From positions 1-64,000 of the forward strand of contig JADHYX010000038.1 in assembly GCA_027604685.1 (NCBI GenBank): a DNA stretch of 64,000 nucleotides. The letters are read 5' to 3'. This document shows positions 56,449 through 60,256 of the stretch, one piece after another. A program made the position numbers and the translations under genes. The first letter of the stretch is position 1, and each line of letters starts with the position of its first letter. Origin of the DNA: Lobulomyces angularis. Its lineage: Eukaryota; Chytridiomycota; Chytridiomycetes; Lobulomycetales; Lobulomycetaceae. The notes beneath the pieces were generated by a model. That model worked only from the letters and a program-made list of their open reading frames with translations, was not told where the DNA came from and made no database searches.

Positions 56449-57077
56449 TTTGTAGTTATTCTTTTTTTTTTCTTTGGTATATTTTTATTATTTGTAAAAA
56501 TATTTTTTTTTTTTTGAAGTTTATTTTTTTACAGGGATTTGTTTTTTCAGAATTTAAACAAGTAATGCTTTAATTTTCTAATAAAACAAATTCTTAATTG
56601 GAAGTAAAATTATTTTTTATTGCAAATATAAGATAGATAAATGCGAGGTTGTGAAAGTGAAACACTGAATTGAAGGAAATGTGTGGACCTATTCTAAAAT
56701 CTTATTTTTAAAACAGTGAATCAGTAATTTAATTTAAAAAACCTTGAAAAGAATGCAGTTTAAAATGAAGTTGCAGGTGTTTGCAATGCTATATGACTTT
56801 TGCATTCATTTTACATAAAGGCTGGTTTATTTCTGACTTGTAATGGTAATGGTGTGTATTGATGAGAATAAATACGCAATATTTTCAAATAAGTAAAATA
56901 ACAACAATCCCAATAAGCAAAAATGCTAGTTTGCAAAGTTGCCAGTACAGTGCTACTATGCAACAATCTCAAAATCTTGTGACTTGACTGGTGACTAATC
57001 ATTAATTGTGACGTAAAGCTGCAATTTTTCACTGAAGCCTAAAAATTTGAACCCCAATTCTTCAGTAATTCCTGCAC
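56449..57077. other. Intergenic, left flank of Fanzor element B
   Basis: AT-rich sequence up to the terminal repeat at 57078. Short frames only; no supported gene. Confidence 0.5.
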
Positions 57078-57110
57078 ATCATAGTGCTTGGGCATTATCT
57101 TTTTGAACAT
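57078..57110 (+). repeat. Left terminal inverted repeat of Fanzor element B
   Basis: 33 bp, pairs in inverted orientation with 58892-58924 with one mismatch. A shorter, degenerate form bounds relic C at 51484 and 51991. Confidence 0.93.
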
Positions 57111-57229
57111 TAATATTCAAAAAAATAACAAACACCAACATATTTTTAAATATAAACATAGTGAAAACTCTGTTGAAAAAACTATCTATATTATAAACAA
57201 AGATATTTTGGTCTACAACCATCTATTAT

Positions 57230-58840
57230 TTAACTTTCCACCACCGATCTTATATTCATGGTTGCAACGTCATCTCTGTTCCATAATCTTTTTTTTCATT
57301 AGGCAGTTGACAAATTTCACTTTTTCAGTGCAACAACCCATGTACTTTTCAATTTTTTTAATCTAGGAGACTCTCTATATTTAAATGTCTCTAATGATCT
57401 TTTTTTACATACTGGGCAAATTGAAGATGTCAAAAATCCAATACATACAAATACATCAAAACCCACTTTCTTAAACATTTCTCGAAATCCCTTACCTTTG
57501 TTGGAACTTGATGCTTCATGCTTGTTTTTGACCAATCCCCAATAATAATTGTTGTGTTTTTTTCATCTCCAAACGTTTTTTTTACATTTTTAATAAATTT
57601 ACTTTCTGATTTTTGAATATTGATAAAGTTCTTTAATTTAAGTTTTTTCTGAAAATTAATTGCTTATAAAATTCTTCACTATGGTAAAACTTGATAAAAA
57701 AATCTTTCAAGTAGTTCTTACCATTACTTCCAAGACAATACAACAGGTCTCTTTTATTACGATCAATATAAACTTTATTAGAATGTAAATCTTCGAGGTT
57801 ATCTTGAAAGTACTCAGATTTTTCTGTTTTTTCTCTTTTTAACTCGTGGTACATTTTCTTTTTGTTTAGGTTTTGGTGAAGATAGTTAAACACTTGAAAC
57901 ACCATCCGTTCTAACCATTCCATTAAAACTCATATTGTTTCTAGATTTAAAAGCTTTCGCATTAGTTTTGAAAACCGTTTCCCATACTATTTCTTTACAC
58001 GATTTAACACTGTTTTCTTTTGTTCTTGATAAATTTAAAATGTTTTCCAATAATACTTTGGTGTCAATAATAATATGCCTAGGAATCGAAGATGTTGATA
58101 AGGGAATAAAATTAAATAATTTCAAAATCATATTTTTGGTATAATTCACATATTTTGAAATAAGACCAAGTATTTTTCTGTTCGTGCAACTATATCGTAA
58201 GCCAATCCATTAATATAAATGTCTGTGGGCAACAAATCCTTTTTTCATTTGCAATTTGCAAATGAAACACGTGTGTTATTTCAACATTTTCTTTACCAAA
58301 ATGTAATCTTGTACTTTAATACGTTTTTGTAAAATTTTAATAAATTCTTTAGATATTCCTTTAAATTTCAATTTTTTTATTATCATTGTAGAAGTAAATT
58401 TTTTAACTTTTTGAATAAAAAGCTCTTGACATTAACTAGGTGATTTGTATAAAACATTTTTGAAGCATATATAGTTATTTGTTGAACATTTTTTATTTCT
58501 TGATTATCGTATGATGCTATTTTTTTATATTTGAGAATATAAGGTAAAAATCGATGTATAACAGACATTCTTTCTTCTTTATTTCTATTACTGATGGTGT
58601 GGTTGTTTAGTAAAGAAAAAATTACTTGAAAATCTTTTTCAGCTGTAATATGTTTGTTGGTATGATTGGAATTGAGTATATACCACTTAATAAAATGAGT
58701 AGTATGTACAGTTAATCTATTAACATTAAAAATCAATGTTTCAATATTTTTCAAATGCGTTTCATCTCCTTTGAAAACTTAACTAAAATTAGTTTTATTT
58801 GTTGAATGTTTTTGTTGCATCATTTTAAATTTTGAATTTT
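57230..58840 (-). pseudogene. Fanzor nuclease gene, frameshifted (relic B)
   Basis: Fragments in order on the minus strand: THFIKWYIL (58383-58754), YVNYTKNMILKLFN then IIIDTKVLLENIL and NAKAFKSRNNMSFNG (57886-58180), RuvC-I DRNKRDLLYC (near 57740-57770), IIIGDWSK (about 57531-57556), GKGFREMFKK and LTSSICPVCKK, the zinc-ribbon start (57380-57510), HGLL, and WNRDDVATMNI, the RuvC-III block (57251-57283), with a stop at 57230-57232. Frame changes lie near 57510, near 57280-57350 and near 58180-58380, with stops in between. Two of the RuvC aspartates are present; the D-E usually seen before the T-S-x-x-C is I-G here. It is inactive as it stands. Confidence 0.87.
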
Positions 58841-58891
58841 TTTTGAATATTACTCTTTATAAAATATTTATTTTTGGACAGAATTAAAATT

Positions 58892-58924
58892 ATGTTCAAA
58901 AAAATAATGCCCAAGCACTATGAT
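58892..58924 (-). repeat. Right terminal inverted repeat of Fanzor element B
   Basis: 33 bp, contains AATGCCCAAGCACTATGAT; the reverse complement matches the left end at 32 of 33 positions. Confidence 0.93.
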
Positions 58925-59500: not shown

Positions 59501-60256
59501 ATGTTAGCATCAACCACTTCCTTAACTCAGGTTTCCCCCATTGACAAGGAATTTAACCTGTGGTCTCCCCCTACCCCCACTCCTTTGCATTGTTCATCTC
59601 ATCTTATATCAAAACCGAAGAGGCATTCCCAAAGAGCTCAGTATGCTGAAAAAATTTTAGGTATTCTTAAATTTAAATTTTTTTTTTTTTTTAATTTTAT
59701 TTATTTTTTAGACCAAGCTACAAATATTTTATCGGTTCTATACCCCACTTCAACGAAAACTTTTGCAAACAAACCATTAGCTAGTTTAAAAACGTTTATA
59801 AGAGATTTTCTTAAAAAAAGTAAAACCACGTTTTCTACACTACAACTAGCTTTATTGTATTTGGTCAATTTAAAAAAGGCTCAAGAAAAGTTGGATTTTT
59901 TGCAAAACGATAAATTGAGATCGAACCCAATTTTTAAGTGTGGAAGAAGAATGTTTTTGGCGAGTTTAGTTATAGCGTCAAAAGTAGTGCTAGAACCTGC
60001 ACCAAAAAATATTGCTTGGTCCAAGTTAAGTGGTTTGCCAATCAGTGAAATAAACAATGGCGAAAGGTTACTATTGACAGCGTTAAATTATAGAGTTGTT
60101 GTCCCTTTTGATGAATTTGTTGAATGGAATATGCTGCTACATTGCCCCACAGTTGAGTTATTTCATAAAATCAATCTAGTTGAAACTTCAAGCTTGGATT
60201 TTGTACAACAAACCGTTCATCATAACGCTCAATCAAAAAGTTTATTAATTTTTTGA
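59501..60256 (+). CDS. Pho85-type cyclin, paralogue of the gene at 53227
   Basis: Two exons joined over the intron 59661-59711 (51 nt, stop-free, multiple of three), giving AEKILDQATNILSVLYP. The box contains SLKTFIRDFLKKSK, LALLYLVNLKKAQ, CGRRMFLASLVIASKVVLEP and AWSKLSGLPISEINNGERLLL. It is strongly similar to the cyclin at 53227 over the whole box, with the intron at the same codon and phase, so the two are duplicates. The N-terminus (LWSPPTPTPLH) has S/T-P sites. By family it would activate a Pho85/CDK5-like kinase. Confidence 0.87.
   Translation: MLASTTSLTQVSPIDKEFNLWSPPTPTPLHCSSHLISKPKRHSQRAQYAEKILGILKFKFFFFFNFIYFLDQATNILSVLYPTSTKTFANKPLASLKTFIRDFLKKSKTTFSTLQLALLYLVNLKKAQEKLDFLQNDKLRSNPIFKCGRRMFLASLVIASKVVLEPAPKNIAWSKLSGLPISEINNGERLLLTALNYRVVVPFDEFVEWNMLLHCPTVELFHKINLVETSSLDFVQQTVHHNAQSKSLLIF

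Follow-up and report, generated by a model that had tools for sequence, protein, structure and literature searches.

Copies of a Fanzor1 transposon family in the genome of the chytrid Lobulomyces angularis carry the motif CATA on one flank only, and the account that we consider probable is that of a non-autonomous element, moved in trans by a mariner-type transposase, provided with a guide RNA, and helped to persist by cutting at CATA. The family belongs to Fanzor1, has its ends in common with a transposase-bearing element and TA at both sides, and its right end folds upon itself; transcription of that end, movement in trans, cutting and repair-based retention would be the steps that connect these observations. 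One copy lies in the window, by which we mean the whole 64,000-nucleotide stretch of DNA analysed, and judged by its sequence it is a dead copy (57084-58918) of a Fanzor1 transposon family related to SpuFz1.

The window copy and its relatives

The initial annotation of the window had read the gene as a Fanzor from the motifs DRNKRDLLYC, GDW, TSSICPVC and WNRDDVATMNI, all of which can be found on the minus strand, spread over different frames with stops between them, and had bounded the element by 33-bp arms (57078-57110 and 58892-58924). The arms do match at 32 of 33 positions, and each retrieves the other in a whole-genome search (97%, E 4.3e-7), but they do not constitute one 33-bp inverted repeat: the conserved unit is an inverted repeat of 27 bases, alike at 26 of 27 between the window arms and followed by TA, and the outermost four bases of the arms are host flank that is alike by chance in the window copy (Table 1). 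The ends are present on other copies of the gene, the repeat recurring with Fanzor copies across the genome, and a genome search for the ends' 17-base core, allowing at most two mismatches, gave at least 169 occurrences against 0 for a reversed control pattern.

Table 1. Features of the window copy, in window positions; "minus" is the gene strand.
Feature	Position	Strand	Basis or remark
Fanzor1 element, window copy	57084..58918	minus	1835 bp between TA duplications
Right-end inverted repeat (3' of gene), 27 bases	57084..57110	minus	arm and copy comparison
Left-end inverted repeat (5' of gene), 27 bases	58892..58918	minus	one mismatch to right end
TA target-site duplication, right end	57082..57083	none	copy comparison
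TA target-site duplication, left end	58919..58920	none	copy comparison
CATA on gene strand at left end (host-flank CA plus TA)	58919..58922	minus	predicted target-adjacent motif (TAM)
N-terminal (WED/REC) gene fragment	58386..58778	minus	SpuFz1 match, E 1.1e-7
Middle gene fragment, with residue aligned to SpuFz1 R291	57967..58203	minus	alignment
RuvC-I fragment, IDRNKRDLLYC	57645..57839	minus	translation
IIIGDW fragment, in another frame	57433..57663	minus	translation
Zinc-ribbon and RuvC-III region (TSSICPVC ... WNRDDVATMNI), with stop codons	57197..57541	minus	translation
Predicted small hairpin CAGAGT-TTTC-ACTATG	57157..57172	minus	1 of 6 pairs broken in window copy
Predicted guide-RNA scaffold hairpin, subterminal sequence pairing with inverted repeat and TA	57082..57138	minus	window z -6.8
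Predicted guide of window copy, 15 host bases after TA	57067..57081	minus	inferred; length after the available text of PMC10432273

The Fanzor reading itself holds: by sequence search the family falls within Fanzor1. In the sister copy L030, a fragment of 332 residues matches SpuFz1 (E 5.8e-53) and, more weakly, the Fanzor1 proteins of Parasitella (2.3e-36) and Guillardia (1.6e-6), while SpuFz1 is the sole match of the window copy's N-terminal fragment (E 1.1e-7). Homology to the solved Fanzor1 proteins covers the RuvC, zinc-ribbon and N-terminal regions, and L030 retains the SpuFz1 active-site positions D383/N385, E541 and D606, in DPNKRD, CNEYLTSS and WNRDDV respectively. The search against TnpB/Fanzor profiles that had been proposed as a check gave weaker evidence: a fragment of the second family described below, family B, matches Pfam PF07282 at E 2.6e-4, under the curated cut-off, and the window copy's own short fragments returned no relevant Pfam family and none above cut-off. 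A protein database search yielded at least 85 relatives, among them some from the chytrids Lobulomyces, Clydaea, Phlyctochytrium, Thoreauomyces and Kappamyces and the alga Coccomyxa, and many others from unnamed or metagenome sources. Five further matches to PF07282 in the genome, on contigs C78, C123, C247, C189 and C107, exceed the Pfam cut-off and may represent other TnpB/Fanzor families.

A Fanzor protein match was found in 86 of the 109 genome stretches examined, or 85 if L046 and L093, which are the same place, are counted once, and pieces at contig ends among them may belong to one copy. Two Fanzor families share the end, family A, which includes the window copy, and family B, with matches in 85 distinct stretches between them. 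The suggestion that active copies may exist elsewhere in this genome was not borne out within these 86 stretches: none holds an intact Fanzor gene, and the longest match-holding frame is 332 residues (SPu-1-1p has 633, according to the available text of PMC3627910), a result limited by contigs that break inside the repeat ends. The counts cover part of the genome's repeat ends, and those from searches are lower bounds. On eight contigs (C132, C159, C184, C228, C242, C291, C312 and C509) the 17-base core starts 57-67 bases from the contig start, as if assembly had broken inside nearly identical young copies, and intact copies may hence be absent from the assembly.

As the initial annotation had it, the window element holds no transposase and its gene is decayed. 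The decay takes the form of stops, frameshifts, changed RuvC positions and a deletion inside the element. At about 57715-57725 it is without 106-155 bases that are present in all 16 of the other family A copies spanning that point. Its RuvC-I motif has DRN; of the 12 other family A copies compared, 10 have DPNK (the exceptions being HPNK in L022 and DPKK in L024). IGF stands at the position of SpuFz1 E541, against NEY in L030. The D and N of the first RuvC motif and the last D are kept, with P changed to R and E541 replaced. Given the deletion, the frame damage with its stops and these two replacements, we conclude that the window copy is inactive in its present form. Beside the element lies a 251-residue open frame (window 59501-60256), which we take to resemble a fungal cyclin of the PHO80/PCL type.

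A transposase element with nearly the same ends, and a fold at the right end

The inverted repeat of families A and B is nearly identical to that of L049 (G000:C280:11000-13950), a 2.5-kb element with the repeat and TA at both sides, whose repeat is one base off the window's right-end repeat. Its transposase gene has broken frames; pieces of it score above the Pfam cut-off for HTH_23 and reach 28.5 and 23.2 bits for DDE_3, whose cut-off is 28.6. TA stands at both sides in 8 of the 12 family A copies with two recognised ends, and a TA duplication together with ends in common with a transposase element is the configuration of non-autonomous Tc1/mariner elements. Because the L049 transposase element has nearly the same repeat, we infer movement in trans, and the Tc1/mariner-type transposase of L049-like elements is the likely mover of both Fanzor families.

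Other frames occur in or near elements with this repeat. A second open frame of L049 (508-981) runs on the opposite strand, and the 147 residues of it that were tested gave a weak coiled-coil match below cut-off. L051 (G000:C115:54700-55903) has an open frame at 280-1127 inside a 0.85-kb element bounded by the repeat, and L066 (G000:C91:1-1300) a 220-residue frame at 233-892, with no Pfam match, which sits between two ends facing away from it and hence outside both elements. The L051 and L066 frames carry what we assume to be an aspartic-protease-like motif (DSG/DTG).

At the right end of the Fanzor elements, most copies show an end-to-end fold of the last 68 bases and the TA, the TA and inverted repeat pairing with a subterminal stretch. 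With 100 shuffles for each end, z was below -2 in all 26 right ends filed as family A (mean -5.3), one of which, L079, belongs to family B by later assignment, and in 21 of 29 family B right ends. Left ends reached this value in 2 of 19 cases in family A and 0 of 15 in family B, the latter group including the L048 end at 245, which is really a right end; the fold set excludes ends with more than six mismatches, L093 and L062. The hairpin was found in 0 of 14 non-Fanzor ends (60 mononucleotide shuffles). L063, the sole hairpin former among the 24 ends first taken as non-Fanzor, was recognised as a family B right end and removed from that set.

A hairpin that includes repeat and TA is as expected of a guide-RNA scaffold, and we regard it as a putative one. 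Its position and size resemble those of the 75-nt scaffold of Spu-1, which has a guide of 14-15 nt in the available text of PMC10432273, and the pairing of the TA would fit the view, stated in the portion of PMC10711439 at hand, that repeat and duplication are parts of the Fanzor1 scaffold. It is very doubtful that the hairpin is instead a by-product of a partial duplication of the inverted repeat for transposase binding. By eye the upstream arm does resemble a degenerate copy of the repeat, and the evidence from covariation is mixed: the percentage paired, the covariation score and the number of cells changed on both sides lie above all 500 shuffles, while the pairs changed on both sides (three) and the pair types do not, in a count whose structure was derived from one of the sequences counted; moreover, RNAalifold, run on 53 right ends aligned together, gave no pairs. 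For the outer pair of the small upstream hairpin, 14 of the 25 family A rows have C-G, 6 have U-G and 5 have a gap or no pairing, and all 28 family B rows have A-U, so that the main covarying pair is one fixed difference between the families and not many events. A by-product of transposase binding would nevertheless have to be reconciled with a hairpin that occurs at the end after the gene, in elements bearing a Fanzor, that is rare at left ends and absent from the 14 non-Fanzor ends, and that has the likeness to the Spu-1 scaffold just described.

CATA on the left flank of family A

CATA stands at the left flank of 15 of 26 family A copies, and of 15 of the 19 that keep the TA; the other 7 of the 26 left ends are without TA and not cleanly readable, and 4 of the 19 are not CATA. 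The 26 comprise 24 ends, 13 of them with CATA, plus C262 and C488, both with CATA, which were put in family A by internal sequence after their flanks had been listed; family A internal matches with no recognised left end were left uncounted. The window copy and 14 others thus have CA upstream of the left end and CATA, as in Spu-1. At family A right ends the motif occurs once in 26, in the window copy itself (p 4e-5 against the A left ends), at family B left ends once in 22 (p 1e-4), at non-Fanzor ends in 0 of 14 (p 3e-4) and at family B right ends in 3 of 34, against a background, counted over both strands of the window, of 474 in 11,484 TA sites. Since CATA is rare at A right, B and non-Fanzor ends, CA is no feature of such ends in general; it is a mark of one side, in family A alone. 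The family A copies look like separate insertions, as pairwise comparison of 24 left flanks (up to 800 bases; 263 for L067) gave no match at E 1e-5.

These counts use ends with at most eight mismatches. An initial control set of 23 ends was found, by protein search and inspection, to hold unrecognised Fanzor ends and was revised, and the flanks were recounted, with L040 and L067 moved from the controls to family A (L067 by DNA likeness to L040, not by protein match) and several ends to family B. L093, the same place as L046, was dropped, and the L048 end at 245 was taken out of the left ends; L079 is counted in family B, L063 among its right ends, and L066, L114 and L115 among its left ends. 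The 14 control ends are six from transposase elements (two each of L049 and L110, one each of L111 and L113), six from two-sided elements with no Fanzor match (two each of L050, L051 and L116) and two single ends with no inner Fanzor match (L066 at 943, and L117).

The main rival explanation, which we think unlikely, is that the CA belongs to the left end of the element and not to host DNA. C at -4 (14 of 17) and A at -3 (16 of 17) are conserved in TA-keeping family A left ends almost as well as the repeat, all three departures from C at -4 are T, as decay of C to T would give, and the available text of PMC10432273 describes the CA of Spizellomyces punctatus as another two conserved bases, upstream of the 5' inverted repeat. 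The TA at both sides of 8 of the 12 two-ended copies, however, places the CA outside the target duplication. L009 and L012 carry TATA despite a nearly perfect repeat, and near-identical repeats in family B and non-Fanzor elements mostly keep the TA with almost no CATA (1 of 22 and 0 of 14).

Tc1/mariner target capture has two-fold symmetry. A second preference, for T at the fourth base outside the TA, is seen on both sides, in 64 of 100 TA-keeping ends, or 57 of 83 with the family A left ends set aside; in the latter it is near background (7 of 17). This two-sided preference, which was noticed in the data and not predicted, is the mark that a symmetric transposase would leave. It indicates that a transposase may read flanking bases beside repeats of this type, and it lends something to the explanation that the transposase complex with family A ends prefers CATA targets in one orientation, with no effect of the nuclease. 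We consider that explanation decidedly unlikely, as the T preference is two-sided whereas the CA is one-sided and found in family A alone, in spite of the two repeats of the window copy differing by one base only.

In the available text of PMC10432273 the target-adjacent motif of SpuFz1 was measured as CATA, which is needed for cutting; Q129 and R291 recognise A(-3) and the G paired with C(-4), and R96 also contacts the C. In the numbering used here (chain 8gkh_P minus 394), Q129 is kept in 4 of 4 family A fragments and 0 of 3 of family B, and R291 in 5 of 6 and 0 of 4, with Q130 kept in both families. Family B left flanks have ATTA in 8 of 22 cases, against 6 of 74 right ends and controls, in a post hoc comparison, and ATTA is possibly a separate target motif of that family.

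Proposed retention by cutting of empty sites

The sequence of events that we favour would run as follows. Other elements, with nearly the same repeat, would have supplied a Tc1/mariner-like transposase that moved the Fanzor element in trans and duplicated TA. Transcription of the right end would yield a guide RNA in which the hairpin scaffold, inverted repeat and TA included, precedes a guide of about 15 host bases. Excision by the transposase would leave an empty site of the form CA-TA-guide, that is, CATA followed by sequence matching the guide, which the nuclease would cut, and repair from the sister or homologous chromosome would copy the element back. Copies beside CATA would be kept, and the surviving family A would hence show CATA on one side only. 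Retention predicts enrichment of the motif at the left flank only, in the nuclease's own family and not beside transposase-only relatives, and all three hold for family A; the one-sided CATA and its controls suggest that cutting aided retention of the element.

Several observations weigh against retention by cutting. R96 and N133 of SpuFz1 are poorly kept in family A, R96 being replaced by N in 4 of 4 fragments aligned and N133 by I in 3 of 4. The left ends that have lost the TA and those that keep it with another motif than CATA also count against it, as does the drop of the T preference to near background in family A left ends. No match in the genome spans a junction of the empty sites sought for 10 family A copies (the flanks of L014 fall in repeats), and the failure of RNAalifold to pair the right ends, the mixed pair counts, the want of an intact Fanzor in the stretches examined and the broken L049 transposase point the same way.

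We lean, by a little, toward reading the CATA mark as a fossil record of RNA-guided cutting of empty sites having decided which copies of a eukaryotic transposon survived, as has been proposed for bacterial TnpB. If so, families A and B, with a nearly identical transposase-type end and different motif-reading residues, amount to a natural experiment, with a flank motif that goes with the nuclease rather than with the transposase. The available text of PMC10432273 gives the biological role of Fanzor nucleases as unknown, and old flanks would offer a test of it that needs no living system, by a flank count that can be repeated in any genome rich in Fanzor copies. The CA itself is not new, having been described upstream of Spu-1 left ends by Saito et al. 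(PMC10432273, in the text available). In the open-licence PMC literature we found no earlier report of a second chytrid genome with the mark, of the CA placed outside the TA duplication, or of controls with nearly the same repeat and no CA, and no paper that pairs Lobulomyces with Fanzor.

The closest known system is Spu-1/SpuFz1 of S. punctatus, which in the available texts of PMC3627910 and PMC10432273 is likewise an element of about 2 kb in a chytrid host, its single gene a Fanzor1 and no transposase within it, with inverted repeats some 30 bases long, a TA duplication, CA before the left end, the motif CATA, and a scaffold spanning the right-end repeat, as is predicted here. In the window element, too, the repeats measure about 30 bp, a TA is duplicated and the Fanzor gene stands alone. 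S. punctatus has 19 full-length Fanzor genes on record, in contrast to the lack of any intact copy found in L. angularis, and L. angularis differs also by a second Fanzor family, B, whose nearly identical repeat goes without the CATA flank. In the available text Saito et al. (PMC10432273) report no transposase element flanked by Spu-1 repeats, a gap that the matching-end element found here fills. PUl-4 and other Fanzor1 elements on Mariner ends are also Fanzor-only, with an inverted repeat and TA duplication that fit a mariner family, in a different host; the available part of PMC3627910, which describes them, contains no analysis of target motifs. The TnpB proteins of IS200/IS605 elements offer the parallel of a proposed cut-and-copy retention after excision (PMC10432273, in the available text), with a guide from the right flank and a motif on the left flank, as in our proposal. 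IS200/IS605 elements insert downstream of a short motif, according to the portion of PMC10711439 at hand; here, in contrast, TA alone is duplicated, and the extra CA therefore needs another cause.
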